Assembly (NCBI RefSeq): GCF_900114385.1
Contig: NZ_FOSW01000008.1
Location: 62,001 to 126,000 of the forward strand
Length of the DNA stretch: 64,000 nt
DNA from: Geodermatophilus ruber
GTDB lineage: Bacteria; Actinomycetota; Actinomycetes; Mycobacteriales; Geodermatophilaceae
Direction of reading: 5' to 3'
Numbering within the stretch: the stretch's first letter is position 1; each line of letters opens with the position of its first letter. The position numbers and the translations under genes are program-made. Shown one piece after another: positions 8,868 through 49,377 of this stretch. A model generated the notes under the pieces. The model did not search any database, was not told the origin of the DNA, and saw nothing but the letters and a program-made list of their open reading frames with translations.

Positions 8868-8917
8868 AGGGGTCCGCCTATCCGTGGCGATGGTTGTGCT
8901 GTCCGTGCTCCTGTCTC

Positions 8918-9034: not shown

Positions 9035-9083
9035 AGAAGAGCCCCCCGCGGCGCCGGGGACCGGCGGGCCGCGAGGGGCTTCT
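9035..9083 (-). terminator. Hairpin terminator after the fliD-fliS operon
   Basis: AGAAG(a)GCCCC(c)CGCGG pairs with CCGCGAGGGGCTTCT across a GC-rich loop, giving a stem of about 15 bp with two bulges. It lies 13 bases beyond the last stop codon of the fliD-fliS-FliT-position operon. There is no clear T-run, as is common in high-GC actinobacteria. Confidence 0.65.
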
Positions 9084-9096
9084 GGTGATGCGGGGC

Positions 9097-9456: not shown

Positions 9457-9839
9457 GCCGGCGTCGCGGCCAGCGAGGCAGCGGCCTGCCGCCACGCGTC
9501 CCGGAGCGGCTCGACGACCTGAAGGCACGAGGCCACCCGGTTCCGGTCGGCCTTGATGTTGGCCTGGATCAGCTCACCGATCAGCCAGGTGTAGAGCGCG
9601 GCCAGTCGAGGGCCACCGTCCCAGGCATCGACCTGCAAGCTCTCGCGGAGCTCGAAGACGATCTCTTGGGCGTGTTGCAGCTGGGCTGCGGCTTCCTGCC
9701 GATTGCCCTCGCCGAGGGCCACCTGCGCACGCTCGAGGTCTAGGGCCAGCCGGTCGTAGAGCATGACCAGCAGCTGCTGGGGGGAGGCGGTGGCGACGGA
9801 GTCGCCGAGGTAGCGGGCGCGCAGCGAGGCGGCACTCAT
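9453..9839 (-). CDS. fliS: Flagellin export chaperone FliS
   Basis: This 128-residue all-helical protein opens with RARYLGDSVATASPQQLLVMLYDR, the typical FliS start in which the Y..... PQQL(L/I)xMLYD segment is diagnostic. It contains NIKADRNRVASCLQVVEPLRDAWRQA near the end. FliS binds the disordered C-terminus of flagellin, prevents cytoplasmic polymerisation and delivers it to the export gate. In FliW/CsrA-containing bacteria it also competes with FliW for flagellin. It lies between fliD and the FliT-position gene in one transcript. Confidence 0.95.
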   Translation of the reverse strand: MSAASLRARYLGDSVATASPQQLLVMLYDRLALDLERAQVALGEGNRQEAAAQLQHAQEIVFELRESLQVDAWDGGPRLAALYTWLIGELIQANIKADRNRVASCLQVVEPLRDAWRQAAASLAATPA

Positions 9840-9888
9840 CGGGAGTTCTCCTGGTGCGTGGGGAGGAGCCGGTGGGGGACGGCCGAGG

Positions 9889-11247: not shown

Positions 11248-11305
11248 GTCACTGACTCCTGGCTCGACGGGGAAGGGGGCTCGAGGGATCGACGGCGGGA
11301 AGAGA

Positions 11306-11339
11306 GTGAGGGGGGAGACCCGAGGGCCTCCCCCCTCAC
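11306..11339 (-). terminator. Flagellin gene terminator
   Basis: GTGAGGGGGGAG and CTCCCCCCTCAC form a perfect 12-bp stem with a 10-base loop, 50 bases after the flagellin stop. The stem is strong enough to end transcription without a long T-run. It would separate a highly expressed flagellin transcript from fliD. Confidence 0.8.
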
Positions 11340-11388
11340 CCGGGGTGTTGCTAAGGAACCGTGCCTCAGCTACTCAGCTGATCGCCGA

Positions 11389-12255
11389 TCAGCGGAGCAG
11401 CGAGAGGACGCCCTGCGAGGCCTGGTTGGCCTGCGCGAGCATCGCGGTGCCGGCCTGCGACAGGATCTGGGAGCGGGTGAACCCGACCATCTCCTGCGCC
11501 ATGTCGGCGTCACGGACCCGGCTCTCGGACGCGGAGAGGTTTTCCACCGCGACGTTGAGCGAGTTGATGGTGCTCTCCAGGCGGTTCTGCGAGGCACCGA
11601 GGGTGGCGCGGGCGCCCGACACCGTGCTGATCTGGGCGTCGATGCTGTCCAGGTCGGTCTTGGAGGTGGCGTAGGGGGTTGCGACCGTCGAGGCCTTCAC
11701 GTTGGTCGCCACCGTCTTGATGGCGTCCGCGACCTTGAGGACGTTGGCCAGCGTCACGCTCTGCGTCTCGTTGCCGTTGGCACCGGTCTGGAAGGTGATG
11801 ACCTTGTCGGCCCCCGCCAGGGTGCCGTCGACACCCTGCAGCAGCTTGGTGCCGTTGAAGTCGGTGCGCGTGGCGATGTCCTCGAGCGCCTTGCCGAGCT
11901 CGTCGATCTCCTTGCCGATGTAGCCGGCGGCGGTCGGGGTGACCACGCCGGTGTTCGACGCCTGCACGGTCAGGTCGCGGACGCGCTGCAGGATGCTGTG
12001 CACCTCGGTGAGGGCACCTTCCGCCGTCTGGACGACCGAGACGCCGTCCTGGGCGTTGCGGACGGCGACCTTGAGGCCACCGACCTGCGAGCGCAGGCCC
12101 TCGGAGATCGCCAGGCCAGCGGCGTCGTCGGCGGCCCGGTTGATGCGGAAGCCGGAGGAGAGCTTCTCCAGCGACTTGCTCATCTGGTTGTCGGTGATCG
12201 ACAGGTTCCGGTGAGCGTTGAGCGCCGCAATGTTCTGGTTGATACGCAGACCCAT
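11389..12255 (-). CDS. fliC: Flagellin
   Basis: This 288-residue flagellin consists of the conserved helical D0/D1 domains only. The N-terminal part is GLRINQNIAALNAHRNL ... SLEKLSSGFRINRAADDAAG, the C-terminal part is VENLSASESRVRDADMAQEMVGFTRSQIL ... QANQASQGVLSLLR, and only a short linker replaces the outer D2/D3 domains. The filament is therefore probably thin and smooth. The start ATG at 12255 is fixed by an excellent AAGGAGG site seven bases upstream; the upstream in-frame start is rejected. The leader has several GGA motifs, one inside the ribosome site, as expected of a CsrA target. It has its own terminator. Confidence 0.97.
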   Translation of the reverse strand: MGLRINQNIAALNAHRNLSITDNQMSKSLEKLSSGFRINRAADDAAGLAISEGLRSQVGGLKVAVRNAQDGVSVVQTAEGALTEVHSILQRVRDLTVQASNTGVVTPTAAGYIGKEIDELGKALEDIATRTDFNGTKLLQGVDGTLAGADKVITFQTGANGNETQSVTLANVLKVADAIKTVATNVKASTVATPYATSKTDLDSIDAQISTVSGARATLGASQNRLESTINSLNVAVENLSASESRVRDADMAQEMVGFTRSQILSQAGTAMLAQANQASQGVLSLLR

Positions 12256-12300
12256 GATGATCCTCCTTGGATGGGGTGGTTCCTGGTTCCCGCTGCATCC
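12256..12300 (-). promoter_or_regulatory. Flagellin leader with ribosome site and candidate CsrA-binding GGA motifs
   Basis: On the minus strand the leader contains a direct repeat GGAACC-A-GGAACC (12278-12290), another GGA at 12298-12300, and the ribosome site AAGGAGG with two overlapping GGA cores (12261-12266). In Bacillus, CsrA represses flagellin translation through one GGA site at the Shine-Dalgarno and one upstream. csrA and its antagonist fliW are encoded 4-5 kb away. A GCCGAAAAA motif on the minus strand (12366-12374) could be a motility-sigma -10, but I see no matching -35. Confidence 0.45.
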
Positions 12301-12384
12301 GTGCTGCGGGTGGTACATGTGTGGTTACGGCCGGAGGGGGCCGGGGCTTGAGGCGAGATCCCTACTTTTTCGGCCGGATCTCAC

Positions 12385-13317
12385 TCAGGCGGGTCGGGCC
12401 GCTCCCTGCGCAACGGCCGCCCACGGGTTGCGGTGGGCCGCCGTCGCGCAGGGAGCGTTCCGCGGGTGGGGGAGCGGCGGGGCGTTGCGGCCGGCCACCC
12501 GGTCGACGTACGAGCGCTGCTGGTTGCGTGCCCGGACACCGCCCTCGGCTTGCACAGCCTTGCCCTCCCACACCTCACTCATCGCCGCGTGCAGCAGGGT
12601 GAGTGCCCGCGCCCGCATCTGCGAGACGCGGGAGAGGGTGACGCCGAGGTCGGCGGCGATGTCGGTCAGCGACTCCCCGCCGAAGAAGTTGCGCTCCACG
12701 ACCTCGTCGAGCCGGTCGGGCAGCGCCCGGATTGCCTCGTGCAGGTAGCGCGACCGCTCCCCGCGCAGCAACGCCCGCTCCGGCGACTCCCCGGTGTCGG
12801 GCAGGTCGAGCGAGGTCCCGTCCGGTCCGGTCTCGGCGTCGATGCTCACCATGACCGCGCGGTGGACGTCGACCTGCAGCGAATCCAGCTCGCTCCTCGC
12901 CACGCCCAGGCGCGCGGCGAGCTCCTCCCGCGTCGGCGGCCGGCCCAGCTGCATGGCCAGGGCGTCGGCGGCGGCGTCGGTCCGCCGAGCGGCGGCGCGC
13001 ACCGACCGGCTCGCCCAGTCCCCGGACCGCAGCTCGTCGAGCACGGCGCCCTGCAGGCGGGTCAGTGCGTACGTGGCGAACGACGCCCCCGCGGACGGGT
13101 CGAACCGCCGGGCCACCTCCACCAGCGCCACCTTCGCGCAGGACAGCAGGTCCTCGCGGCTGACGTGACTCGGTAGGGAGATCCGCGAGGCCACCGCGTT
13201 GACGGCGAAGGCGGCGAGCGGCAGGTGTTCGGTGACCAGGGCGTCGACGTCCGTGGTGGACGATGCGGGCCGCGGGGTGGGGGTCCGCTCGATCGCCGGG
13301 GTGCGGGAGGGCGTCAC
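12385..13317 (-). CDS. fliA: FliA/WhiG-type RNA polymerase sigma factor (motility sigma)
   Basis: This 310-residue sigma-70-family protein has region 2 at ~28-95 (DLLSCAKVALVEVARRFDPSAGASFATYALTRLQGAVLDELR). Region 3 lies at ~118-150 (RPPTREELAARLGVARSELDSL), and region 4 at ~195-245 ends with the helix-turn-helix ESLTDIAADLGVTLSRVSQMRARAL. The LDELR end of region 2 is characteristic of the sigma-28 group. The start is GTG at 13317 after an AAGAAGGG site. About 50 residues beyond region 4 form a basic, low-complexity tail, part of which is encoded by a long palindrome (12401-12456). It likely transcribes late flagellar genes and lies divergent to flgN-flgK. Confidence 0.9.
   Translation of the reverse strand: MTPSRTPAIERTPTPRPASSTTDVDALVTEHLPLAAFAVNAVASRISLPSHVSREDLLSCAKVALVEVARRFDPSAGASFATYALTRLQGAVLDELRSGDWASRSVRAAARRTDAAADALAMQLGRPPTREELAARLGVARSELDSLQVDVHRAVMVSIDAETGPDGTSLDLPDTGESPERALLRGERSRYLHEAIRALPDRLDEVVERNFFGGESLTDIAADLGVTLSRVSQMRARALTLLHAAMSEVWEGKAVQAEGGVRARNQQRSYVDRVAGRNAPPLPHPRNAPCATAAHRNPWAAVAQGAARPA
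12401..12456. repeat. Long palindrome in the 3' end of the sigma gene
   Basis: Arms 12401-12424 and 12433-12456 pair over 24 bp with two mismatches around an 8-base loop (GGGTTGCG). The element lies inside codons ~288-306 of the sigma gene, where it encodes an ATAAHRNPWAAVAQGA-type tail. It could be a REP-like element inserted into the coding end, a terminator overlapping the gene, or both. Confidence 0.85.
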
Positions 13318-13489
13318 GCCCTTCTTCTCGGCGGACCCGGGCGGAGTCGGGACCCCCTATCGGCCGAATTCCGCCGAACTTGAGCACCTCGGCTTGAGAC
13401 GTCCCCTGATGGTGCCGAAGCCAGTTCCGAGAACCCGCTGGCAGCACCGGATGACTGCCCCGGGGAGACGACGGAAGGACGGTGGGGGC

Positions 13490-13975
13490 GTGGACTACCA
13501 GCACCTGTCGACGTTGCTCTGGCGGGAGCAGGAGTTGCTGGACCTGCTGTTGTTCAAGGCGGAGGAGAAGCAGTACCTGATCGTCACCGGCAAGACCCGC
13601 TGGCTGGCGCGCATCGCGCACGAGATCGAGGTGGTCCTCGACCAGCTGCGCATGCTGGAGGTCGAGCGGGCCGCCGCGACCGAGGCCATCGCCGAGCGCC
13701 TCGGGGTGGGCGCCAATCCGTCACTGCGAAAGCTGGCCGAGGCCGCGCCGGCGCCGTGGAACGACCTGTACGCCAAGCACCACGAGGCGCTGCTCGTGCT
13801 CGTCACGGACCTGCGCAGCCTCTCCGATACCAACCGCGAGCTGATCGAGGGCGGGCTGGCCGCGCTCGGCGACGCGCTGCTGTCGGTGAAGGCGCCATCG
13901 GCGGGCACCTACGGCGCCACCGGCCGGACCGATGAGCGGGCCAACCGCGCGGTCACCCTGGACGGTGCCCTGTGA
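13490..13975 (+). CDS. flgN: Flagellar export chaperone FlgN
   Basis: This 161-residue, mostly helical protein (LSTLLWREQELLDLLLFKAEEKQYLIVTGKTRWL ... LVTDLRSLSDTNRELIEGGL) resembles FlgN, the chaperone of the hook-filament junction proteins FlgK and FlgL. Both of those are encoded directly downstream, and the stop overlaps the flgK GTG as GTGA. I chose the GTG at 13490, preceded by GGAAGGAC and a purine-rich stretch. An in-frame ATG at 13451 would add 13 basic residues. The intergenic region 13318-13489, shared with the divergent sigma gene, contains three GCCGAA motifs without a convincing -35. Confidence 0.85.
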   Translation: MDYQHLSTLLWREQELLDLLLFKAEEKQYLIVTGKTRWLARIAHEIEVVLDQLRMLEVERAAATEAIAERLGVGANPSLRKLAEAAPAPWNDLYAKHHEALLVLVTDLRSLSDTNRELIEGGLAALGDALLSVKAPSAGTYGATGRTDERANRAVTLDGAL

Positions 13976-15369
13976 GCACTTTCTCCGGGCTGAACACGGT
14001 AACGACGGCGCTGTGGGCGCAGCGCCGCGGGCTCGACGTCACCGGGCAGAACATCGCCAACGTCAACACCGACGGCTACTCCCGGCAGCGGGTCGATCTG
14101 CAGTCGATGGGTGGCACCGCCGTGCCGGCCTTCTTCTCGACGAGCCGCGCCACCGCCGGTGGGGTGAGCGCGGACGACGTGATCCGCATCCGGGACACCT
14201 TTCTCGAGAGCCGAGCCCACACCGAGTACGCGAAAACCGCCCGGCTCACCATCGAAAGCAAGGCCTACGAGATGGTCGAGCAGGCCCTCCGGGAACCCGG
14301 GGACACCGGCATCCAGAGCCAGCTGTCGGACATGTGGGCGGCCTGGGGTGACGTCGCCAACCACCCGACGGACCCCGCGGCCCGAAGCCAGCTGCTGCAG
14401 CGAACCGAGACGCTGGTCAGCGGCTTTCAGGCCGCCCGGTCGTCGCTCGACGCCCAGTGGACCCAGGCGCAGGAGAACCTCGTCGCCCTCGTCGACGAGG
14501 TGAATGCCGTTGCCGGCGACATCGCCAAGCTCAACGAGGCGATCCGCCGGGCCACCCAGGACGGCAAGTCCGCCAACGAGCTGGCCGACAAGCGCGACGT
14601 CCTCGTTCTCAAGCTGGCCGACCAGGTCGGGGCCACCGTGCGGCCGGCCGAGGACGGCGTCCTCAACGTCCTCGTCGGTGGGGTGACGCTGGTGACCGGC
14701 GCCGCCGCGACGAAGCTGGCGGTTCAGGGAGCTGTCCAGCCGGACGACGCCCTCACCGACATGCCGCGCATCGTCACGGTGCCCGGCGGCACTAACGTCA
14801 CGCCCGGCGGCACCGCGCAAGGGCAGATCACCGTCCTGACCGACATCGTCCCGACCTCGCGCGCGGCGCTCGACGAGGTGGCCCAGAAGCTCGTCGCGCA
14901 GGTGAACGCCGTGCACAAAACGGGCGTCGACCTCGCCGGTGCCCTTGGCCTGGACCTGCTGGGACCATTGCCGGCCGGTACGGTGACCGCGGCGACGATC
15001 CGGCTCAACCCCGCGATCGGGCCGGAGCAGATCGCCGCATCGAGTCTTCCGAACAGCACCGACGCGGAGATCGCCGACCGGATCGCCAACCTAGGGACGC
15101 TTCCGGGCAGCCCGGACTCCGTGTACCGCGACTTCATCGTCGCCCTCGGCGTCGAGGCCGCGGTCAGCTTCCGGAACCTCGGCATCCAGAGCGAGATCAC
15201 CACGAACGTCGACGCCGCCCGCGAGTCGGTGGCCGGGGTCAACCTCGACGAGGAGATGTCCAACATGCTCCAGTTCCAGCACGCCTACTCGGCCGCGGCC
15301 CGGATGGTGACCGCGATCGACGAGACGCTCGACGTGCTGATCAACCGCACCGGCCTCGTGGGGCGGTGA
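13972..15369 (+). CDS. flgK: Flagellar hook-associated protein 1 FlgK
   Basis: This 465-residue protein begins STFSGLNTVTTALWAQRRGLDVTGQNIANVNTDGYSRQRV. It therefore carries the rod/hook N-terminal signature NIANVNTxGYSRQ that is diagnostic for FlgK. The C-terminus has the matching hook domain (GVNLDEEMSNMLQFQHAYSAAARMVTAIDETLDVLINRTG). FlgK is the first junction protein between hook and filament. The start is a GTG overlapping the flgN stop, and only four bases separate it from flgL. Confidence 0.97.
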   Translation: MSTFSGLNTVTTALWAQRRGLDVTGQNIANVNTDGYSRQRVDLQSMGGTAVPAFFSTSRATAGGVSADDVIRIRDTFLESRAHTEYAKTARLTIESKAYEMVEQALREPGDTGIQSQLSDMWAAWGDVANHPTDPAARSQLLQRTETLVSGFQAARSSLDAQWTQAQENLVALVDEVNAVAGDIAKLNEAIRRATQDGKSANELADKRDVLVLKLADQVGATVRPAEDGVLNVLVGGVTLVTGAAATKLAVQGAVQPDDALTDMPRIVTVPGGTNVTPGGTAQGQITVLTDIVPTSRAALDEVAQKLVAQVNAVHKTGVDLAGALGLDLLGPLPAGTVTAATIRLNPAIGPEQIAASSLPNSTDAEIADRIANLGTLPGSPDSVYRDFIVALGVEAAVSFRNLGIQSEITTNVDAARESVAGVNLDEEMSNMLQFQHAYSAAARMVTAIDETLDVLINRTGLVGR

Positions 15370-39654: not shown

Positions 39655-40203
39655 TTGAAGACAGTCACCACCACCCGGCCAGAGCTGCTCGACAACGGCG
39701 TCGATGACCAGCGGTTCCGGGCTCTGATCTACGACCTGCTGGCGTTCAGCAGCCGACTGGAGGAGGTTCGAAATGGGCTAGGCGCGCTCCTCGGCGTCAC
39801 GGGGCCGCAGTATTCGACCCTCATCGCCATCAGACTGCTGTCGGGAGAACGCGCCATCGGCATCACTGACGTTGCCGACTTCCTGCATGTCAGCGGCGCT
39901 TTCGTTACATCGGAAGTCAACAAGCTGGTCAAGCTCGCCCTGGTCGAGAAGGTCCGGGACCAGCAGGACCGCAGGCGGGTCTCGCTGTCCGTCACCGCAG
40001 AGGCAGAAGCCCGACTGGACGAGCTGAGCACCTTTCAGCGCCCGGTGAACGACCGCTTGTTCGCAAACATCACCAGGGAGGAATTCCTGGTCTTGTCCAA
40101 AGTGCTGAAGCAGCTGGTCAGCCAGGGCGACGAGGCCGAGCTCTACATGGAATACCTCCTCAAGAAACACCAACCAAGGCTGGCCGATGATGAGGCCGGC
40201 TGA
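39655..40203 (+). CDS. MarR-family transcriptional regulator of the monooxygenase cluster
   Basis: This 182-residue protein has the MarR winged helix-turn-helix: LGVTGPQYSTLIAIRLL, AIGITDVADFLHVSGAFVTSEVNKLVKLALVEKV and the wing DQQDRRRVSLSVT. Such proteins usually repress catabolic operons until a phenolic or aromatic ligand binds. The start is TTG at 39655, six bases after GGAAGG. A palindrome overlaps its own -10 box, and the same palindrome occurs at the start of the reductase transcript (45961), linking both halves of the cluster. hpaB follows 96 bases downstream on the same strand. Confidence 0.92.
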   Translation: MKTVTTTRPELLDNGVDDQRFRALIYDLLAFSSRLEEVRNGLGALLGVTGPQYSTLIAIRLLSGERAIGITDVADFLHVSGAFVTSEVNKLVKLALVEKVRDQQDRRRVSLSVTAEAEARLDELSTFQRPVNDRLFANITREEFLVLSKVLKQLVSQGDEAELYMEYLLKKHQPRLADDEAG

Positions 40204-40299
40204 GATCTGCGGCCGACGACGACGACGGCGCCATCCCATTCCTCCGGGCCGGGTGGTCCGTCGTCTCTGACGGCGGCCCTCAGCGATTGGACTGAAGGA

Positions 40300-41763
40300 A
40301 TGACCAAGACCGGAGCTGACCACCTGAACTCCCTCCGCGACGGCCGGGAGGTCTACGTCGATGGAAAGGTGGTCGAGGACGTCACAGAGCATCCGGCATT
40401 CCGGCAATCGGTCGGGGTGGCCGCGTCGCTCTACGACCTGCACACCGATCCGGTTCTCGGTCCCCAGCTCACGTTCGAGAGCCCGAAGACGGGCGAGCGG
40501 GTCAACCGCTCGTGGGAGCTGCCGACGAGCTACGAGCAGCTCGTCGGTCGCCGGCAGGCCCTCATGAAGTGGCAGGAGCCGCACCTCGGCTTCTTCGGTC
40601 GCTCCCCGGACCACGTGGCGTCCTGCATCGCCGCCATGTACATGTCCGCCCACGTGTACGACGAGTACGACCCCGCGCGCGGCGCCGCCGTGCGCAACTA
40701 CTACGAGCACTGCCGCGACAACGACCTCTACCTGACGTACACGATCATCAACCCGCAGGCGGACAAGTCGAAGTCCGTCAGCGAGCAGGCCGACCCCTAC
40801 CTGACGCTCGGCGTCGTGGACGAGGACAGCGAAGGCATCACCGTGCGCGGCGCGAAGATGCTCGCCACCTCGGGTGTCATGGCCAACGAGGTGTTCGTCA
40901 GCGGGGTGCAGCCGCTGCAGCCGGGGGACGAGCGGTACGCCGTCTCCTTCGCGGTGCCCATGAACGCGAAGGGCCTGCGGATCCTGTCGCGCAAGTCCTA
41001 CGAGGCCGCCGCGCTCTCCACCTTCGACAACCCGCTGTCCAGCCGGCTCGACGAGACCGACTCGGTCCTCTACTTCGACGACGTCAAGGTGCCCTGGGAG
41101 CGGGTCTTCGTCAACCAGGACATCGGCATGCTGCAGCGGCAGTTCCACGGCACGCCGGTGCACGTCTACCAGAACTACCAGTGCAACGTCCGGCTGCTGG
41201 TCAAGTTCCAGTTCCTCGCCGCCATCGCCCACCGGATCGCCGAGATCAACAGCACGCTCGGCTTCCCGCAGGTGCGCGAGCAGCTCGGGCAGCTCGCCGC
41301 GGAGGTGGGCTCGGTCGACGCGCTGCTGCACGCCATGGAGGTCAAGGGCTACAAGTACGGGGAGTACTTCATCCCGGACCCGGCGCTGCTCTACTCCTCG
41401 CAGGTGCTGACCCAGCAGCTGTATCCCAAGGTCATCCAGACGCTGCGCGAGCTCGCCGGCGGCGGCGTCATCATGCTGCCTTCCAGCGCCGACGACTACA
41501 GCAACCCGATGCTGGCCGACCTCATCTTCAAGACCCAGAAGTCCTCCGTCGCCACGCCCGAGGAGCGGGTCAAGCTCTTCAAGCTCGCCTGGGACGCCAT
41601 CGGCAGCGAGTTCGCGTCGCGGCACCTTCAGTACGAGATCTTCTACAACGGTGCGACATTCGTCGTCCGCGGCAACGCCTACCGCACCTTCGACTGGGGG
41701 CGCGGGGCCGAGCTGCTCGACTCGTACATGAAGTCGTACGACCTTCCCGCGGCCGCTCGCTGA
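40300..41763 (+). CDS. HpaB-type FADH2-dependent aromatic monooxygenase (4-hydroxyphenylacetate 3-hydroxylase family)
   Basis: This 487-residue protein matches the HpaB/PvcC/4-hydroxybutyryl-CoA dehydratase family. It has an N-terminal RDGREVYVDGKVVEDVTEHPAFRQSV, a SPDHVASCIAAMYM helix, a flavin-site segment TIINPQADKSKSV, a GAKMLATSGVMANEVFV segment and VPWERVFVNQDI in the C-terminal half. These enzymes use FADH2 supplied by a separate reductase to hydroxylate phenols or other aromatic rings; the reductase candidate is at 46025. GAAGGA precedes the ATG. The exact substrate cannot be read from the sequence; dehydratase activity is less likely because the cluster has a flavin reductase. Confidence 0.9.
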   Translation: MTKTGADHLNSLRDGREVYVDGKVVEDVTEHPAFRQSVGVAASLYDLHTDPVLGPQLTFESPKTGERVNRSWELPTSYEQLVGRRQALMKWQEPHLGFFGRSPDHVASCIAAMYMSAHVYDEYDPARGAAVRNYYEHCRDNDLYLTYTIINPQADKSKSVSEQADPYLTLGVVDEDSEGITVRGAKMLATSGVMANEVFVSGVQPLQPGDERYAVSFAVPMNAKGLRILSRKSYEAAALSTFDNPLSSRLDETDSVLYFDDVKVPWERVFVNQDIGMLQRQFHGTPVHVYQNYQCNVRLLVKFQFLAAIAHRIAEINSTLGFPQVREQLGQLAAEVGSVDALLHAMEVKGYKYGEYFIPDPALLYSSQVLTQQLYPKVIQTLRELAGGGVIMLPSSADDYSNPMLADLIFKTQKSSVATPEERVKLFKLAWDAIGSEFASRHLQYEIFYNGATFVVRGNAYRTFDWGRGAELLDSYMKSYDLPAAAR

Positions 41764-41892
41764 GCCGACCGGGGCCGAAACTCCAGGGACGGCCCCGGGT
41801 GATTCACGGAGTTCCGGCGCAATTCTGATCGGGCTTCCTGGTGACGCCGGCTTGTTCCGGGCGCCCGCCGCCCAGGCGTCACCCCCGATCTC

Positions 41893-41914
41893 GCCGCTCT
41901 TCTCGAGCGGCTTT
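41893..41914 (+). terminator. Hairpin with T-run between hpaB-type gene and ABC genes
   Basis: GCCGCTC-TTCTC-GAGCGGC is a perfect 7-bp stem followed directly by TTT. It lies 130 bases after the monooxygenase stop and 95 bases before the lipoprotein gene, in a comparatively AT-rich stretch. It could end the marR-hpaB transcript or act as an attenuator for the transporter genes. Confidence 0.55.
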
Positions 41915-42008
41915 CTCCACAGCATTATTTCGTCGGCCCCTCACGCCTGGATGTTCAGAAAGTCCGCACCGCTTTCCTGCATCGACAATCGAAGGGAGTC
42001 CCATCGCC

Positions 42009-43145
42009 ATGCGCATGAAGAACTCGGTGAGAGCATTTCTCGCCGGTGCCGTCGTCGCCGTTCTGGCCGCTTGCGGAGCAGCGGGAGGAGCCGGCGAGGA
42101 GGCTGCGGCCGCCCCGGACGCCTCCGAGAACTGGACCATCGCTGCCGACTACACCCAGCCCGACGGCACGACCGAGGAGGCTGACTACGAGCCGATGTCG
42201 CCGGACGGCGTCGAGGGTGACTGGAAGGTCTGTGCCCTGCTGCCGCACGTGAAGGACGCGCTCTGGGTGTCGGCCAATTACGGCAACCTCATGGAGGCCC
42301 AGCGACTCGGCGTGCAGTACAACATGTTCGAGGCCGGCGGCTACGGGAACCTGTCGACCCAGATCTCCCAGATGGACGACTGCATCGTCCAGGGCTACGA
42401 CGCCATCATCCTGGGTGCGATCAGCGCGGACGGGAACTGTTCGACGATCGAGCGGGCGATCGAGGCCGGCATCGTCGTGATCGACTTCATCAACGGCACC
42501 AACTGCTCCGACGCCGTGAAGTCGAGCGAACTGTTCGCCCAGGCCGTCGTCAGCTACTACGACACCGCGGCGCTCGCCGCTGAACACCTCGTCGAGACGT
42601 CCAACGGCGAACCGCGCAAGGTGGGCGTGTTCCCTGGTCCGGACGGTGCCACGTTCGCCAACGACGCCGCGCAGGGCTTCGCCGACGTCACGGAGGGCAC
42701 CAGTGTCGAGACGACCGTCGTCCGGCGGGGCGACACCGGCCTCGACGTCCAGCTCTCGCTGATCCAGGACGCGCTGCAGGCCTACCCGGACATGACCGAC
42801 GTCTTCGGCGTGGACATCGCCGCGGAGGCCGGCGTGGTCGCGCTGCGCAATGCCGGCAAGACCGGTGAGCTGGGCGTCTACGGCTACACGATCATCCCCG
42901 GCCTGTACGAGGCGATCCAGAACGGCGACGCCGCGGGTGCGGTGGCCGACCACACGCCGTTCCAGGGGCGCATCGCGATGGACATGGCGGTGCGGCTGCT
43001 CGAGGGCGAGGAGCTGCGGGCCACGCGAGTCGGCCCGGTCCCGGTGATGGTGAGTGACGAGAACGTCGACGAGGTCGATTACGTCGAGCTGTTCGGTCCG
43101 CGGGACTTCAAGCCGGTCTACGAGTGGGCCCCTTCGGGCAGCTGA
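42009..43145 (+). CDS. ABC transporter substrate-binding lipoprotein (sugar-type/TorT-like periplasmic fold)
   Basis: This 378-residue protein has a lipoprotein signal peptide: basic start, hydrophobic helix and lipobox AVLAAC with Cys22 as lipidation site. The mature part is a type I periplasmic-binding fold (DWKVCALLPHVKDALWVSANYGNLMEAQRLGV ... GYDAIILGAISADG ... VGVFPGPDGATFANDAAQGF). This resembles TorT and ribose-type receptors. With the ATPase and permease that follow it forms an importer. Its place between a monooxygenase and a flavin reductase suggests that it captures the aromatic substrate or a relative. The start ATG lies nine bases after GAAGGGAG. Confidence 0.9.
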   Translation: MRMKNSVRAFLAGAVVAVLAACGAAGGAGEEAAAAPDASENWTIAADYTQPDGTTEEADYEPMSPDGVEGDWKVCALLPHVKDALWVSANYGNLMEAQRLGVQYNMFEAGGYGNLSTQISQMDDCIVQGYDAIILGAISADGNCSTIERAIEAGIVVIDFINGTNCSDAVKSSELFAQAVVSYYDTAALAAEHLVETSNGEPRKVGVFPGPDGATFANDAAQGFADVTEGTSVETTVVRRGDTGLDVQLSLIQDALQAYPDMTDVFGVDIAAEAGVVALRNAGKTGELGVYGYTIIPGLYEAIQNGDAAGAVADHTPFQGRIAMDMAVRLLEGEELRATRVGPVPVMVSDENVDEVDYVELFGPRDFKPVYEWAPSGS

Positions 43146-43172
43146 CCGACTGATCTCGCCGAGGAGAATCCG

Positions 43173-44717
43173 ATGACTGCGACAGTGCCCACGGTGTCTC
43201 TCCAGGAGATTTCCAAGCGGTTCGGTCCCACCCTCGCTCTCGATGCTGTGTCCCTGGACCTCCTACCCGGGGAAGTGCATGTTCTGCTCGGCGAGAACGG
43301 AGCCGGCAAGTCCACTCTGGTGAAGACGCTGCTCGGGACGTATCACCCGGACAGCGGGCAGATCCTCATCAGAGGGCGGGAGGTGGCGCACCACAACCCG
43401 GGCGTGGCCCGGGACGAGGGGATCAACGTGGTGCTCCAGGATTTCAGCCTGGCTCCCACCCTGAGCGTGCTCGACAACCTGTTCCTCGGTCGCCAGCCGC
43501 TGCGGCGGCGGCTGATCGACACCGCAGCGATGCGGGAGGCCGCGGAGCGTACTCGCGAGCTCGTCGGGGGAACCTTCTCGCTCAACGCCGAGGTGGGTGC
43601 GCTGCCGCGGTCGGAGCAGCAGCTCGTCGAGATCATGAAGGCCGTCATGGGCAAGCCCGGGGCCCTCATCCTCGACGAACCGACCGCGGCGCTGAGTGAG
43701 AAGGAGGCCGAACGGCTGTTCGGCATCGTGGACCGCCTCGTCCACCAGGGGTGGGCGATCCTGTACATCACCCATCGCATGGCCGAGATCCGGCGGCTCG
43801 GAACGCGGGTCACGGTGATGCGGGACGGCCGACGGACCGGAACCCACCTGGTCAGCGCGGTGACCGACGACGAGCTCGTGCGCGAGATGATCGGTCGGGA
43901 CATCACGGCGGTCTACCCGCACAAGGCCGACCCCCGGCACCTGGGCCCGACGGTGCTCCGCTTGACCGATGTCAGCAGCGCCAACGGCAAGGTCCGTGAC
44001 GTCTCGCTGCACGTCCGGAGCGGGGAGATCGTCGGGATCGCCGGCCTGGTCGGGGCCGGGAAGGGGGACGTGGCCCGGGTGCTGTCCGGGCTGGAGCACA
44101 CGACCTCGGGAGAGGTCGAGGTGCTCGAGTACCGGACCTCCCGGCCCCAGATCAGGAAGATGTTGGCCGCGGGCGTCGGCTTCATGCCCGAGGACCGCAA
44201 GCGGGAGTCCCTGGCTCTCCAGCTGACCACGGCGGACAACATCAATCTCGAGGCCTCGTCATCCAAGGCCCATGGTCGGTTCGGGTTCCTGCACCGGGGG
44301 CAGCTGCGTGAGGCGGCGATCAGCATGATCCGACGCCTCGACGTCCGGCCCGCGGATCCCCAGCAGGAGGTCGGCCTGCTCTCGGGCGGCAATCAGCAGA
44401 AGGTCGTGCTCGGGCGGGCGCTCACCCGGCCACGGAAAGTGTTCGTCGTCGCTGAGCCGACCGCGGGTGTCGACGTGGGATCGCGCCAGCAGATCTACGA
44501 GGAGCTCAGGAGGCTCTGCGACGACGGCGTTGGTGTCCTCGTCGTGTCCAGCGACCTGGAGGAGATCGTCGGGCTCTCCGACCGGGTCTACGTCATGCAT
44601 TCCGGTGCCGTCTGCGCCGAACTCGTAGGTGACGAGATCAGCGACGAGGCAGTGATCGCGGCCGCCTTCGGCCACGGCGCGGACGAGCCGACAGCGCGAG
44701 TTCAGGAGGCCGTGTGA
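43173..44717 (+). CDS. ABC transporter ATP-binding protein, two-domain (RbsA/MglA type)
   Basis: This 514-residue protein has two fused nucleotide-binding domains. The first has Walker A GENGAGKST (40-48), a degenerate signature PRSEQQLVEIMKAV and Walker B ALILDEPTAAL. The second has a weak Walker A (GLVGAGKGD), the signature LSGGNQQK near 405 and VFVVAEPTAGVD. This asymmetry is normal for the RbsA/MglA class of carbohydrate-type importers. GAGGAG lies upstream of the ATG. It is 27 bases after the receptor gene and overlaps the permease by TGATG. Confidence 0.95.
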   Translation: MTATVPTVSLQEISKRFGPTLALDAVSLDLLPGEVHVLLGENGAGKSTLVKTLLGTYHPDSGQILIRGREVAHHNPGVARDEGINVVLQDFSLAPTLSVLDNLFLGRQPLRRRLIDTAAMREAAERTRELVGGTFSLNAEVGALPRSEQQLVEIMKAVMGKPGALILDEPTAALSEKEAERLFGIVDRLVHQGWAILYITHRMAEIRRLGTRVTVMRDGRRTGTHLVSAVTDDELVREMIGRDITAVYPHKADPRHLGPTVLRLTDVSSANGKVRDVSLHVRSGEIVGIAGLVGAGKGDVARVLSGLEHTTSGEVEVLEYRTSRPQIRKMLAAGVGFMPEDRKRESLALQLTTADNINLEASSSKAHGRFGFLHRGQLREAAISMIRRLDVRPADPQQEVGLLSGGNQQKVVLGRALTRPRKVFVVAEPTAGVDVGSRQQIYEELRRLCDDGVGVLVVSSDLEEIVGLSDRVYVMHSGAVCAELVGDEISDEAVIAAAFGHGADEPTARVQEAV

Positions 44718-45862
44718 TGACCCAGCTACAAGAGCCGGTGCAGCAGGACGCCGTTCCGGCACCCGAGACGACGGCCGGCCGAGGCCGCCGCTACTGGTTC
44801 CTCAAGGCATTCGCCACCGCGGGCCCGCTGCCGTTCCTGCTCCTGCTGCTCGTCGTCGGCGTCACGCTGGTCAACCCGGTATTCCTGAGCAGCAGCAACC
44901 TCAGCTCGGTGGCCACCCAGTCGGTCTACCTGCTGCTCGTCTCCCTGGCTCAGATGCTGATCCTGGTCACGGGCGGCTTCGACCTCTCCGTCGGCGCGAA
45001 CGTCGCCTTGACCAGCGTCACCTCCGCGCTGGTCATGCAGTCGGTGTACGGGGGAGTGGACGAGTACTCCGGCATCGCCCTGATCTGGGGTCTGGTCGTG
45101 GCGCTGCTGGTCGGCCTCGTCGTCGGACTGGTCAACGGGATCGGCGTCGCCGTCCTCAAGGTGAACGCCTTCATCGTCACGCTCGCCAGCATGGGCATCT
45201 TCACCGGCGTGACGATGTTGGTGAGCGGCGGTTCGGAGGTCAGTGGCCTGCCGCGGGTGTTCACCCACGAGGTCGGTTCCGGGCGGGTGTTCGGCGTCGT
45301 CCCCGTCCCGCTGCTCATGATCCTGCCGGTCATCTTCCTGCTCTACGTGCTGCTCCGTCGCATGAAGTACGGGAAGTCGCTGTTCGCCATCGGTAGCAAC
45401 GAGCTCGCCGCCCGGGTGGCGGGGACGCGTGTCGGGACGAACCTGGTCATGGCCTACGTCCTCGGCGGGGTCGTGACCGCGTATGCCGGCTGGCTGCTGA
45501 CCGCTCGCGTCTCCTCGGGGCAGCCGCAGCTCGGGGCCGAGCTGGCGATGCAGTCGATCACCGCCGCCATCATCGGGGGCGCCTCCCTGCTCGGCGGTCG
45601 CGGCAGCGTCGGCGGCACGGTGCTGGGCGTGCTCTTCATCGTCGGTCTCACGAACGGCATGAACCTGATGCGCATGGATTCCAATCAGCAGAACATCGCC
45701 CTCGGGCTCGCGCTGGTCCTCTCCGTGCTGGTCAGCCGCGCCCGTGACCGTGCCCGCCGCGAGGTGGCAGTCATGGAGCTCGACCAGGGTGCGACACCGC
45801 CGGCGGCGGGGCCGGTTGGCAGCCTGCCCGAGCAGCGGAATCCCCTGGCGCCCCCGAGCTGA
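44717..45862 (+). CDS. ABC transporter permease (RbsC/AraH type)
   Basis: This 381-residue protein has eight to ten hydrophobic helices. It shows the branched family motifs of ribose-type permeases: ILVTGGFDLSVGANVALTS, VNAFIVTLASMGIFTGVTMLVSGG, GSNELAARVAGTRV and GGASLLGGRGSVGGTVLGVL. It forms the membrane channel for the importer, probably as a homodimer since no second permease is present. The ATG at 44717 is seven bases after AGGAGG and overlaps the ATPase stop (TGATG); a GTG one codon earlier is possible. Confidence 0.94.
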   Translation: MTQLQEPVQQDAVPAPETTAGRGRRYWFLKAFATAGPLPFLLLLLVVGVTLVNPVFLSSSNLSSVATQSVYLLLVSLAQMLILVTGGFDLSVGANVALTSVTSALVMQSVYGGVDEYSGIALIWGLVVALLVGLVVGLVNGIGVAVLKVNAFIVTLASMGIFTGVTMLVSGGSEVSGLPRVFTHEVGSGRVFGVVPVPLLMILPVIFLLYVLLRRMKYGKSLFAIGSNELAARVAGTRVGTNLVMAYVLGGVVTAYAGWLLTARVSSGQPQLGAELAMQSITAAIIGGASLLGGRGSVGGTVLGVLFIVGLTNGMNLMRMDSNQQNIALGLALVLSVLVSRARDRARREVAVMELDQGATPPAAGPVGSLPEQRNPLAPPS

Positions 45863-45939
45863 CCGTCGACGGGAGCCGCCGCAGCACGTGGCGGTTCCCG
45901 CCCGGGGCGCACTTCCCGGCAGCCACAGAAGACCAACCG

Positions 45940-45975
45940 TTGCCCATGCCTCGATAAAAAGCTAAGTTACTTAGC
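45940..45975 (+). promoter_or_regulatory. Promoter and perfect palindromic operator ahead of the flavin reductase
   Basis: TTGCCC (45940-45945) is followed after 17 bases by TAAGTT (45963-45968). The -10 lies within GCTAAGT-T-ACTTAGC (45961-45975), a perfect 7-bp inverted repeat. The same palindrome with three changes overlaps the -10 of the MarR gene at 39621-39635. The repeated layout strongly suggests control by that MarR protein. Confidence 0.78.
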
Positions 45976-46024
45976 AAAGTTTCTGAGACACTAACGTGCT
46001 CGTGACCCTTGGGAGGGGATCTTC

Positions 46025-46519
46025 GTGGCCAGGACACTGACCGCAGCCGAACTGCGCGGCGCGTTCTCACGATTCGCCACCGGCGTCACCGTGGTGACGT
46101 ACGAGGTCGAGGGGGAGCCGCGCGGATTCACCGTGAACTCCTTCACGTCCGTTTCGCTCGATCCGCCGCTCGCGCTGGTCTCCGTGGCCCGTACCGCCGC
46201 GGCTGCCTCCCGTCTCGCGGGTGCGCGGTTCGCGATCAACGTGCTGAGCGAGGACCAGGAGGCCCTCGCGCTGCAGTTCTGCGGGCGGCAGCAGGACGAC
46301 CTGGAGATCGGCTGGCGGATGACGCCCGGGCAGGCTCCGGAGCTCGACGACGTCGTGGCGGCCTACCAGTGCAGCGGCTGGCAGGTCGTGTCCGCCGGCG
46401 ACCACGACCTGCACGTGGCGGAGGTGCTCTCGGTCCGCGTGGAGCCCGAGAAGAGCCCACTGCTGTTCATCAACGGCAAGTTCGTCACGGCTGCGACCGG
46501 CTTCCTGCTGGCCGGCTGA
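46025..46519 (+). CDS. Flavin reductase (HpaC-type component)
   Basis: This 164-residue protein of the flavin reductase-like family has LRGAFSRFATGVTVVTYEVEGEPRGFTVNSFTSVSLDPPLALVSVAR at residues 9-55, diagnostic for HpaC-type NAD(P)H:flavin oxidoreductases. The C-terminal part is DHDLHVAEVLSVRVE ... PLLFINGKFVTAATG. It should supply FADH2 or FMNH2 to the HpaB-type enzyme 5 kb upstream. The GTG start follows GGGAGGGG. A palindromic operator matching that of the MarR gene covers its promoter. Confidence 0.93.
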   Translation: MARTLTAAELRGAFSRFATGVTVVTYEVEGEPRGFTVNSFTSVSLDPPLALVSVARTAAAASRLAGARFAINVLSEDQEALALQFCGRQQDDLEIGWRMTPGQAPELDDVVAAYQCSGWQVVSAGDHDLHVAEVLSVRVEPEKSPLLFINGKFVTAATGFLLAG

Positions 46520-46561
46520 CACGGCTGTCGAACCGAGGCGGACGTCAGAGAGGCGGAGAAC

Positions 46562-46960
46562 ATGGCGGACCTGAACGAGGCCGTGGTGCAGCGGCTGCTC
46601 GAGGGGCGGAACCACGCGGTCATCTCCACGCACACCCAGGACGGCGCCATCCACAGCGCTGTCGTGTGGGTGAACGTCGAGGACGGGATGCCTGCGGTCA
46701 ACAGCGCCATCGGCCGGCGCTGGCCGGCCAACGCGGAGCGGGACTCCCGGGTGACGCTGCTCGTCTACGACCCGGCCAATCCCTACGAGTACGTCGAGAT
46801 CCGGGGGCGCGCGACGGGGCGTACCGCCGGCGCGGACGACCACATCGACCGGTTGGCCCAGAAGTACTTGGGCGTGGACCGGTACCCCTTCCGGGCCGAG
46901 GGCGAGCGACGGATCACCTACCTCGTGGAGCCCGAACTGGTCCGCCACCAGCAGCAATGA
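46562..46960 (+). CDS. PPOX-class (split beta-barrel) flavin/F420-binding protein
   Basis: This 132-residue protein reads as a pyridoxamine-5'-phosphate-oxidase-like split barrel: VVQRLLEGRNHAVISTHTQDGAIHSAVVWVNVEDGMPAVNSAIG, RDSRVTLLVYDP, YVEIRGRATGRT and the closing YPFRAEGERRITYLVEPELV. In actinobacteria this subgroup often binds F420 or FMN. It lies 42 bases after the reductase with GGCGGAG upstream, so it is probably in the same MarR-controlled transcript. It may reduce an intermediate of the pathway; the substrate is unknown. Confidence 0.85.
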   Translation: MADLNEAVVQRLLEGRNHAVISTHTQDGAIHSAVVWVNVEDGMPAVNSAIGRRWPANAERDSRVTLLVYDPANPYEYVEIRGRATGRTAGADDHIDRLAQKYLGVDRYPFRAEGERRITYLVEPELVRHQQQ

Positions 46961-47118
46961 CGGCCGCTGGACCGGGCCCGGCGGCCGGCGGCACCACCCG
47001 CGACCGCGGGGCGTCCGCCGCCTTCCCTGCCGGCACGGGGGGCGCCCATACGGCCTGACCGGCAAGCCCGACGAAATCGACGACGTTCTGCGTGAATTTC
47101 ACCGACAGGAGAGCGGAC

Positions 47119-47415
47119 ATGCTTCGACACATCTTCATGTGGCAGGTCGCGGAGGGGTGCGACAATCAAGAGATCATCGACCTCCTCGACTCCCTCAAGG
47201 GCCTCGAGCCCCTGCGCAGCTGGGAGCTGGCGGCGCACCAGGGCGAGCCCAACGAGAACGGCCGTCCGTGGGACGGTGTGCTCATCTCCGACTTCGACGA
47301 CTGGGTGGGCCTGGAGGAGTACTCGAACCACCCGCTGCACAGCCAGGTCGTGGAGAAGCTCCTGCCGATGGTGTCCGAGCGCGCTGTCGTCGACTTCGTG
47401 CGCGAGGAGGCGTGA
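47119..47415 (+). CDS. Dabb (stress-responsive A/B barrel) domain protein
   Basis: This 98-residue protein matches the dimeric alpha/beta barrel pattern: LRHIFMWQVAEGCDNQEIIDLLDSLKGLEPLRSWELAAHQ, then WDGVLISDFDDWVGLEEYSNHPLHSQVVEKLLPMVSERAVVDFV, in which the HP-H turn is typical. Such proteins act as small oxygenases, cyclases or binding proteins in aromatic pathways. The ATG at 47119 is five bases after AGGAGAG; the longer upstream start is not preceded by a site. It overlaps the cyclase gene by TGATG. Confidence 0.85.
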   Translation: MLRHIFMWQVAEGCDNQEIIDLLDSLKGLEPLRSWELAAHQGEPNENGRPWDGVLISDFDDWVGLEEYSNHPLHSQVVEKLLPMVSERAVVDFVREEA

Positions 47416-48338
47416 TGGCGCGCGCGGACATCAAGGTCGGCATCAGCCCCTACGGGGCGGACGACGAGCGGGGCGCGCTCAACAAGATGACCGGGGTGTC
47501 ACAGGCGAAGATCCTCGCCCGCGCCGACGGCTCGCACGTGTACGACCTGAGCATCGACTACTTCGTCGGCATGCCCAGCTTCCAGGCGGCCGGTGACCCC
47601 GCCTACCAGATCTTCATGAGCCACACGCCAGCCGGCACGGCGGTCGACAACCTCAACGGCGTCGGCGACGACGTCAACGGGCGGGTGTGCTACTCGGGCG
47701 ACGTGATCTTCATGTACACGCACACCGGGACGCACATCGACGCGCTCAACCACTTCGGCGTGAACGGGAAGATCTACAACGGGTTCACCGCCGAGGACAG
47801 CCTGGGCAGCCGGCACTGGATGCGCGGCGGGGCGGAGCAGATCCCCCCGATCGTCGCCCGGGGCATCCTGCTCGACATCGCCGGGCTCAAGGGCCAGGAA
47901 TGCCTGCCCCCGTCCTATGCGATCACGGTGGAGGACTGCCAGCAGGCGCTGGAGCAGAAGGGCCTGACCCTGGAAGAGGGTGACGTCGCTCTGGTCCGCA
48001 CCGGCCGGATGGCCTTCTGGCCCGACGGGTCCAAGGTGCTGGGTAACCCGCCCGGCCTCAGCCTGGAGGCCGCCCGGTGGATCACCGACCAGGGAATCAT
48101 CGCCATCGGTGCCGACCAGGAGTGCGTCGAGGTAGGCCCCTCGCAGCACGAGGACAACTGGCTGCCCGGCCACTGCCACTTCCTCACCGAGGCCGGTGTG
48201 CCGATGATCGAGCTGATGAACCTCGAGGAGCTGGCACGCGACGACGTCGCGGAGTTCTGCCTCATCGCCGCGCCGATCCGGCTCAAGGGAGCCACCGGTT
48301 CGCCGCTGCGTCCCATGGCGATGCCGCTCATCAGCTGA
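47415..48338 (+). CDS. Cyclase/kynurenine-formamidase-type metal hydrolase
   Basis: This 307-residue protein of the cyclase superfamily carries the metal-binding motif HTGTHIDALNHF at ~101-112 (HxGTHxDxxxH). Other family segments are DLSIDYFVGMPSF, ARGILLDIAGLKG, LEEGDVALVRTGR and SLEAARWITDQGIIAIGAD. Relatives are kynurenine formamidase, isatin hydrolase and ring-opening amide or lactone hydrolases. Together with an HpaB-type monooxygenase this suggests opening of an oxidised ring or amide. It is translationally coupled to the Dabb gene. A very strong palindrome 40 bases after its stop probably ends the transcript. Confidence 0.9.
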   Translation: MARADIKVGISPYGADDERGALNKMTGVSQAKILARADGSHVYDLSIDYFVGMPSFQAAGDPAYQIFMSHTPAGTAVDNLNGVGDDVNGRVCYSGDVIFMYTHTGTHIDALNHFGVNGKIYNGFTAEDSLGSRHWMRGGAEQIPPIVARGILLDIAGLKGQECLPPSYAITVEDCQQALEQKGLTLEEGDVALVRTGRMAFWPDGSKVLGNPPGLSLEAARWITDQGIIAIGADQECVEVGPSQHEDNWLPGHCHFLTEAGVPMIELMNLEELARDDVAEFCLIAAPIRLKGATGSPLRPMAMPLIS

Positions 48339-48378
48339 CCGGGAATGAGCCGGGCGTCCGAGGCCCGGTCCCGAACGT

Positions 48379-48419
48379 GGCTGTGTGCTCGCCGGCCGAC
48401 GGCTGGCGAGCACACAGCC
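48379..48419. terminator. Very long perfect hairpin after the cyclase gene
   Basis: GGCTGTGTGCTCGCC (48379-48393) and GGCGAGCACACAGCC (48405-48419) form a perfect 15-bp stem. The 11 bases between them add GCCG/CGGC pairs, so nearly the whole 41 bases fold into one arm. It is likely the terminator of the MarR-controlled reductase-cyclase transcript, but could also be a mobile palindromic repeat. Confidence 0.8.
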
Positions 48420-48480
48420 GCGTCCAACCAAGGCTGGGCCTGGAGTGCCCACTCGACAGAGGAAGAACGAACGACGAGCC

Positions 48481-49377
48481 GTGACACGACTTCCGCAGCC
48501 GACGCCCTCCGCACCGGTCGGGCATGACGCCCGGCCGGTGCTCCAGGTCCGTGTCGTCCAGGTCGCTTATGGCGACGACGAGTCCGTCGAACAGCGAGTG
48601 ACCCGTGTCGCCCAACTGGTGCGCCAGCAGCAGGACGCGGACCTCATCGTGCTGCCCGAACTGTGGTCGCACGGCGGGTTCGCACACTCCGCGTGGCGTG
48701 CGCGTGCCGAGCCGCTCACCGGCCCGACGGTCGCCGCCCTGTCGGCCGCCGTGCGGGAGACCGGTGCCGTCGTCCACATCGGCTCGTTGGTGGAACGGGT
48801 CGCCTCCGGGTCGTCGCCCGGCCCGGAGGGGCGTGGCCTCTGGAACACCTCCGTGGTTCTGGGCCCCGACGGGCAGATCCGCGCGACGTACCGCAAGGTG
48901 CACCGTTTCGGGTTCGGTGAGGGTGAGCCGGTGCTCCTCGAGGCGGGGGAGGAGATCGTCACGAGCGAGCTGACCGGCCGGCGCGGGGGCGGGGTCACGC
49001 TGGGCCTCGCCACCTGCTACGACCTCCGGTTCCCCGAGATGTTCCGTGCTCTGCTCGACGCGGGCAGCGAGGTGTTCGTCGTCCCCGCGGCGTGGCCCCT
49101 GGCTCGGGTGGAGCACTGGCAGCTCCTCGGTCGTGCCCGTGCCCTGGAGAACCAGTGCTTCGTCATCCAGTGCAACACCGCCGGGACGCACAGCGGCGTG
49201 GCCATGGGCGGAAACAGCCAGGTGGTGGGGCCGGACGGAGCAGTGCTGGCCCGCGCGGGAGTGGGGGAGGAGGTGCTGTCGGTCGCCCTCGACCTGGCCG
49301 AGTTGGAGGACTTCCGCAGCTCGTTCCCGGTACTCGGTGATCGCCGGCTCCTTCCGTCCTCCGGTCACGACAGCTAG
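48481..49377 (+). CDS. Nitrilase/omega-amidase-family carbon-nitrogen hydrolase
   Basis: This 298-residue protein has the nitrilase superfamily triad: Glu near 58 in LIVLPELW, Lys near 138 in RATYRKVHRFGFGEGE, and Cys near 178 in LGLATCYDLRFPEMFR. The R-F-P-E-M-F-R segment and the AWPLARVEHWQLLGRARALENQ helix suggest an omega-amidase or N-carbamoyl-type amidase rather than a true nitrilase. The start is GTG at 48481; the ribosome site is unclear. It lies after the palindrome, on the same strand as the catabolic cluster, and could hydrolyse an amide produced there; that link is inference. Confidence 0.9.
   Translation: MTRLPQPTPSAPVGHDARPVLQVRVVQVAYGDDESVEQRVTRVAQLVRQQQDADLIVLPELWSHGGFAHSAWRARAEPLTGPTVAALSAAVRETGAVVHIGSLVERVASGSSPGPEGRGLWNTSVVLGPDGQIRATYRKVHRFGFGEGEPVLLEAGEEIVTSELTGRRGGGVTLGLATCYDLRFPEMFRALLDAGSEVFVVPAAWPLARVEHWQLLGRARALENQCFVIQCNTAGTHSGVAMGGNSQVVGPDGAVLARAGVGEEVLSVALDLAELEDFRSSFPVLGDRRLLPSSGHDS

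Follow-up and report, generated by a model that had tools for sequence, protein, structure and literature searches.

A probable hydroxypyridine catabolic operon in Geodermatophilus ruber that joins an HpaB-type monooxygenase to a known ring-opening module

Background

Pathways that degrade pyridines by way of 2,3,6-trihydroxypyridine (THP) have been described in several actinobacteria. In the nicotine pyridine pathway of plasmid pAO1 (DHPH, PKC and NIT; Paenarthrobacter nicotinovorans), THP is made by the class A flavoprotein DhpH after the action of Mo-hydroxylases, and the pathway ends with a cyclase and an omega-amidase. According to passages of one report, the pAO1 cyclase is expressed only with nicotine, the pAO1 amidase was shown to act on α-ketoglutaramate, and Rhodococcus PY11 relies on HpoH, which the authors term a THP "hydroxylase", together with the amidase HpoI (PMC6214936). 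Passages of a second report state that a polyketide cyclase opens THP at the C-N bond to give α-ketoglutaramate in Rhodococcus and Arthrobacter (PMC9304392). Here we analyze a ten-gene cluster of Geodermatophilus ruber, located at positions 39655-49377 of a 64,000-nucleotide stretch of contig NZ_FOSW01000008.1 (the window), that appears to share the final steps of these pathways.

The cluster also encodes a relative of 4-hydroxyphenylacetate 3-monooxygenase, HpaB/HpaC, in which an oxygenase and a separate flavin reductase cooperate. In the sections consulted of a report on the HpaB family, Arg100, Tyr104 and His142 are highly conserved, and Ser197 and Thr198 hold the substrate carboxylate (PMC10537072).

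The ring-opening module

The last three genes encode a Dabb protein (47092-47415; Dabb, 5.6e-16), a PF04199 metal-dependent hydrolase or "cyclase" (47412-48338; Cyclase, 1.3e-26) and a nitrilase-superfamily amidase (48481-49377; CN_hydrolase, 8.4e-47). The metal motif of the cyclase is intact (HTGTHIDALNH, which fits HxGTHxDxxxH), as are the Glu, Lys and Cys motifs of the nitrilase (PELW, YRKVH and LATCYDLRFPE); we take these motifs to have catalytic roles. The cyclase is 72-83% identical to the cyclases of eight of nine compared loci, which represent nicotine-type, Rieske-type and luciferase-like-type clusters, and 62-63% identical to that of the ninth, from Ruicaihuangia caeni (locus L005). 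Identity to the pAO1 "polyketide cyclase" encoded beside dhpH is 73-75% (74.5% in the pathway comparison), and the pAO1 Dabb protein and amidase are 49% and 47% identical to their counterparts in the window. The best cyclase matches in a plasmid collection are on pSI-1 (76%) and on ten Arthrobacter or Paenarthrobacter plasmids (73.9%), including pAO1.

Ten cyclases were aligned (the window, L085, L060, L061, L098, L089, L087, L090, L086 and L005). Mean column identity is 80%, the metal motif is invariant except for one variable position, and long stretches around it are invariant and common to the window, pAO1 and Rieske-cluster cyclases. In a phylogenetic tree, the window cyclase falls in a clade (support 0.96) with those of all compared loci except L098 and L005; this clade comprises the cyclases of pAO1 and pSI-1, those linked to Rieske oxygenases and most of the nicotine-type ones. 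By sequence, the window cyclase is thus orthologous to PKC of pAO1 and the related cluster cyclases.

The arrangement of genes is also conserved. Ten related loci were compared (L005, L060 from pAO1, L061 from pSI-1, L085-L090 and L098), which are not independent, since L087 and L088, and likewise L089 and L090, are close pairs. In all ten, a Dabb gene lies 606-634 bases from the cyclase gene, center to center, and a nitrilase gene lies within 8 kb of it, although its product is no more than 32-33% identical to the window nitrilase in L005 and L061. Locus L142, whose contig ends inside the cyclase gene, and nine further plasmids with cyclase matches were kept outside this set. By contrast, the upper genes vary: HpaB in L005, a Rieske oxygenase in L085 and L086, a luciferase-like protein in L061, and a class A flavoprotein in others (annotated as dhpH in L060, detected by Pfam scan in L087 and L098, and deduced in L088-L090 from a gene of the same size and position). 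On pAO1, the genes run kdhC, Dabb, cyclase and dhpH, followed by an SRPBCC gene and a carbon-nitrogen hydrolase.

One of the ten loci, L085 (approximately 6272-14917), is a second copy of the module in the same genome, with a Dabb protein, cyclase and nitrilase that are 70%, 83% and 68% identical to those of the window. Its companions are a Rieske oxygenase, a Rieske ferredoxin, a short-chain dehydrogenase/reductase (SDR) and a reductase. Going by what we take to be the gene content of hpo clusters, L085 is likely a 2-hydroxypyridine (hpo-like) cluster. The hpo pathway of R. rhodochrous PY11 starts with a Rieske-type oxygenase system, unlike the window cluster. The two are alike in their endings, in that PY11, known to us here by description, has the THP-opening HpoH and the ketoglutaramate amidase HpoI (PMC6214936, PMC9304392). 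L085 also encodes a 539-amino-acid, permease-looking protein with no family match.

These comparisons lead us to propose that the window cyclase is a hydrolase of the PKC/HpoH type acting on THP (or its 3-oxoglutarimide tautomer) and that the nitrilase is a 2-oxoglutaramate (omega-)amidase. The best NCBIfam model for the latter, deaminated glutathione amidase, gives 119.5 bits against a cut-off of 355. The Dabb-cyclase-nitrilase half of the cluster is not new; it is the module of the literature that converts THP via α-ketoglutaramate to 2-oxoglutarate (PMC6214936, PMC9304392). The label of undescribed pathway, given to the whole cluster in a preliminary description based on the sequence alone, therefore applies only to the upper half.

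Cyclases of Rhizobium, Aminobacter and Variovorax with 53% identity were not used as THP hydrolases; an amidase is nearby, and no Dabb gene is annotated within 8 kb in what is an incomplete annotation. On pSI-1 of Arthrobacter sp. AK-1 (L061, 19660-27017), the Dabb-cyclase pair (76%) is accompanied by a luciferase-like oxygenase, a flavin reductase, a 32% identical C-N hydrolase and a fumarylacetoacetate-hydrolase gene, and this set is possibly a further upper route to THP. The pAO1 Dabb gene (L060, 19696-20001) is probably the ORF that the pAO1 report lists, among those induced by nicotine, as "ORF106, putative molybdenum transport ATPase" (Q93NG5; PMC6214936). The adjoining accessions, Q93NG4 (cyclase) and Q93NG3 (DHPH), and the agreement in order and size point to this; if so, the ATPase name is wrong.

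The HpaB-type monooxygenase and its clade

The new part of the cluster is its upper half, in which an HpaB with a rearranged catalytic triad is joined to a sugar-type importer. We found no description of such a module in a literature search that covered titles and the starts of abstracts among the matches listed, with most subscription papers outside it. The oxygenase (40300-41763; 487 amino acids) is of the FADH2-dependent HpaB type, with HpaB_N (7.8e-95) and HpaB (3.5e-52) domains. As in HpaB/HpaC, there is a separate flavin reductase (46025-46519; Flavin_Reduct, 2.4e-34), which is of the FerA/HpaC/StyB type, scores below the equivalog cut-offs of those three, and is proposed to supply FADH2 to HpaB.

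Alignment with the Thermus enzyme shows that the window protein keeps the conserved arginine but differs at the other positions named above. Its triad reads Arg101-His105-Tyr147, so that the order of Tyr104 and His142 is swapped, and Val203-Gln204 replace the Ser and Thr that hold the carboxylate. It also misses the equivalog cut-offs of TIGR02309 (323.9 against 480.2) and TIGR02310 (276 against 885.2). A 4-hydroxyphenylacetate or phenylacetate substrate was rejected on account of the swapped triad and the lost carboxylate-binding residues.

The swapped triad is not peculiar to the window. Among 93 aligned HpaB sequences, from which duplicate loci and L059 (a match in two pieces) were left out, Arg-His-Tyr occurs in all 61 members of a single clade, the window included (support 1.0 in a midpoint-rooted tree), and in none of the other 32. 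The latter have Arg-Tyr-His (11), Arg-Phe-His (1) or other states (20, from distant sequences of 24-31% identity). The 61 sequences are mostly from Burkholderiales and are not independent; the clade's hosts also include actinobacteria, alphaproteobacteria and acidobacteria. Database records often name these proteins 4-hydroxyphenylacetate hydroxylase.

The gene neighborhoods of the clade are distinctive as well. Within 5 kb of 51 clade loci, a reductase is found at 47, DUF2848 at 43, a small cupin at 42 and at least one match to a C-N hydrolase or cyclase probe at 33. The corresponding counts for 10 control loci with Arg-Tyr-His or Arg-Phe-His are 10 for the reductase, 0 for DUF2848, 0 for the cupin and 1 for the C-N hydrolase. 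Loci with flanks under 4 kb were dropped (10 of 61 in the clade and 2 of 12 controls), and because the probes came from clade loci and the window, the contrast is biased toward the clade. No match to the cupin or to DUF2848 was obtained within 8 kb in L005 or in the whole window, where the Dabb and cyclase genes occupy their place. Three other clusters with the swapped triad (L062, L101 and L102) have a nitrilase of 42-47% identity and no cyclase match.

We tentatively suggest, while regarding it as somewhat short of an even bet, that the clade is an unrecognized family of two-component N-heteroaromatic hydroxylases serving at least two ring-opening modules that are not homologous to each other: cupin, DUF2848 and amidase in most genomes seen, and Dabb, THP hydrolase and nitrilase in the window and in Ruicaihuangia.

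The widespread cluster of Burkholderiales and acidobacteria (L063 and many of L006-L049) contains the swapped-triad HpaB, a flavin reductase, a small cupin and DUF2848, often with an amidase, MarR and LIV-type ABC genes. No mention of DUF2848 was found in the searched literature. L043, L045 and L052 present a further set of C-N hydrolases around this oxygenase clade, in which the HpaB is accompanied by an amidase, an amidohydrolase and a polysaccharide-deacetylase/PuuE-like protein; these families were judged by eye.

The importer

Three genes downstream of HpaB encode a type I, TorT-like periplasmic binding protein of the CUT2 group (42009-43145; Peripla_BP_4, 4.2e-29), a two-domain ABC ATPase of the CUT2 (ribose/arabinose) type (43173-44717; ABC_tran in two stretches) and a single CUT2-type permease (44714-45862; BPD_transp_2, 1.2e-32). 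The importer thus has the type I receptor, two-domain ATPase and single permease family of a CUT2, or sugar-type, system. The receptor passes one TorT model (NF008185, 229.8 bits; cut-off 200) and misses another (TIGR02955, 159.4; cut-off 310), and its nearest solved relative is the CUT2 receptor 4yhs (1.8e-66). The ATPase scores 451 bits against the AraG model, below the equivalog cut-off of 689.

Relatives of the importer are found at E ≤ 1e-40 in 5 of 298 genomes of the order, its own included. The other four genomes contribute six such loci (37-41% identity), all of which were inspected. The importer of L142 is clustered with genes for a cyclase (83%), a nitrilase (69%), XdhC and 5-oxoprolinase-type proteins. 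In the other five (L140, L141, L143, L144 and L164), its neighbor is a class A-type flavin monooxygenase, and the cluster also encodes an amidohydrolase; L140 and L141 were assigned by Pfam scan, and L143, L144 and L164 by blastp matches to those two or among themselves (71-88%). These neighborhoods therefore favor, by analogy, an N-heteroaromatic ligand over a sugar.

The CUT2 importer of L142 has 5-oxoprolinase-type genes (2037-6247; PxpA and PxpC models) to one side and XdhC, the nitrilase and the THP-hydrolase-type cyclase to the other. Biotin carboxylase-like genes, judged by eye, lie between the PxpA- and PxpC-type genes.

Proposed pathway and alternatives

We consider it likely that the cluster is a catabolic operon for a hydroxylated pyridine, in which HpaB and its reductase would make THP and the Dabb-cyclase-nitrilase module would open the ring. 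The importer would take up a dihydroxypyridine or hydroxypyridine, and HpaB, given FADH2 by the reductase, would hydroxylate the ring, once or perhaps twice, to THP; 2,6-, 2,5- or 2,3-dihydroxypyridine would need one oxygen each. The Dabb-associated cyclase would, by orthology, open the THP ring by hydrolysis of a C-N bond, yielding α-ketoglutaramate, and the nitrilase would, by homology, release ammonia and leave 2-oxoglutarate. The formulas balance at each step: dihydroxypyridine plus O equals THP, THP plus H2O equals ketoglutaramate, and a further H2O gives 2-oxoglutarate and NH3. We infer THP as the intermediate, HpaB as its producer and the importer's ligand from these comparisons. More speculatively, the PPOX protein (46562-46960) may hold the easily oxidized THP in its reduced state, a role similar to that of the nicotine-blue oxidoreductase of pAO1, and the MarR regulator might sense the substrate.

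The preliminary description had already proposed that an N-heteroaromatic compound is taken up, oxidized and opened by hydrolysis, with an amidase last, and our analysis supports that outline.

Several points weigh against assigning a hydroxypyridine. The nearest relatives of HpaB outside L005 are mostly in other clusters, with cupin, DUF2848 and amidase, and sequence does not fix the substrate. The receptor itself is closest, among named proteins, to TorT and to sugar receptors. Within its clade, the closer position of the window cyclase is weakly supported (0.53-0.56), and the nitrilases of L005 and pSI-1 are of a diverged type (32-37% identity). In the part consulted of the report on pAO1, the opening of THP to α-ketoglutaramate by the cyclase is given as a hypothesis (PMC6214936). 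Finally, pyrrole-2-carboxylate is isomeric with dihydroxypyridine and could be another source of ketoglutaramate.

In a pyrrole-2-carboxylate pathway, HpaB and the reductase would form 5-hydroxypyrrole-2-carboxylate, which hydration and ring opening would turn into α-ketoglutaramate, to be cleaved by the nitrilase; for these later steps the chemistry is our own reasoning. The swapped-triad clusters noted above that have a nitrilase and no cyclase match would suit this scheme. In addition, the consulted part of one report lists pyrrole-2-carboxylate monooxygenase among the group D (HpaB-type) two-component enzymes (PMC6165268), and the Rhodococcus enzyme, likened here by description rather than by sequence, resembles the window system in having two components and an N-heteroaromatic substrate. 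However, this route does not clearly call for a cyclase and a Dabb protein that group with hydroxypyridine-linked ones at 72-83%, and we regard it as unlikely. It is improbable that the precursor is instead a substituted pyridine or another cyclic imide or lactam, with a THP analog as the substrate of the cyclase and a substituted ketoglutaramate as that of the nitrilase. The cyclase is 83% and not 100% identical to the same-genome copy, the extra PPOX gene and separate importer suggest a substrate other than that of the Rieske cluster, and the more distant cyclases (53%) have amidases nearby in different gene contexts, but the long invariant stretches around the metal motif argue against such a shift. 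An indole/isatin-type pathway, of the kind that the preliminary description had suggested, or an aryl-acetate pathway fits the HpaB family and the isatin-hydrolase superfamily of the cyclase but is highly unlikely and was rejected: the match to isatin hydrolases is weak (33 bits over ~90 residues, compared with 94.6 bits for the uncharacterized 5ibz) beside the close kinship to nicotine- and Rieske-type cyclases, the HpaB active site lacks the aryl-acetate features, and family-model scans of the ten genes gave no aminotransferase, CoA or catechol-dioxygenase family.

If a hydroxypyridine is indeed the substrate, a third or fourth unrelated type of oxygenase, in addition to class A flavoproteins, Rieske enzymes and possibly luciferase-like proteins, delivers THP to one conserved three-gene module, which would therefore become a marker for hydroxypyridine pathways. 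The HpaB clade with the rearranged catalytic center would gain a concrete substrate class, and some "sugar" ABC importers might carry N-heteroaromatics.

Distribution and origin

The same gene set without the PPOX gene is found in one other genome, that of Ruicaihuangia caeni, among 55 named-genome loci (a partial view, since they were found via exact short peptides and several have short flanks). The proteins of L005 are 51% (MarR), 74% (HpaB), 64% (receptor), 63% (ATPase), 69% (permease), 59% (reductase), 42% (Dabb) and 62% (cyclase) identical to those of the window, and the MarR gene has the same place beside HpaB in both. At E ≤ 1e-120, HpaB is detected in 5 of 397 genomes of the order, its own included (42-46% identity in the other four), in 1 of 378 genomes of the family to which L005 belongs (L005 itself), and in 0 of 166 in the order of genome G375, a search that lacked a positive control and so shows little. 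Window HpaB, receptor and ATPase have no match in the 41-kb pAO1 stretch examined.

Within the genus, cyclase matches above 38% identity occur in 1 of 26 genomes, namely its own, which has the window gene and the second copy. At 73% or more, the cyclase is present in 6 of 112 genomes of the family, and at E ≤ 1e-100 in 2 of 394 genomes drawn from the class, both counts including its own. The G+C content of the cluster is 67.9%, compared with 73.5% in the rest of the window, where the lowest value among 175 overlapping stretches of equal length is 70.4%. The low G+C content and patchy distribution therefore suit horizontal acquisition, and the cluster is probably a horizontally acquired catabolic operon. 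A search of the whole-cluster DNA against plasmids gave three matches only, of 40-46 bases, all in the ATPase gene.

Other features of the locus

The ten genes are all on the + strand, with short gaps or overlaps between them, in the order MarR, HpaB, receptor, ATPase, permease, flavin reductase, PPOX, Dabb, cyclase and nitrilase. The starts of the receptor (42009) and nitrilase (48481) genes are those of a codon-composition gene caller. Every gene named in the preliminary description is present on this strand at the position given for it and has a family match; its list had passed over the first gene, MarR (39655-40203; TTG start; MarR_2, 7.5e-9). The MarR protein is a probable ligand-responsive repressor of the cluster, and a search for a shared MarR operator gave weak inverted repeats only. 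The PPOX split-barrel protein (PNPOx_N, 1.2e-7) belongs to the TIGR03618 (F420-type) subfamily (88.9 bits; cut-off 79.05) and is accessory, with no match in L005. The cluster is flanked by unrelated genes, encoding a YchF GTPase upstream and a LURP-one-related protein downstream.

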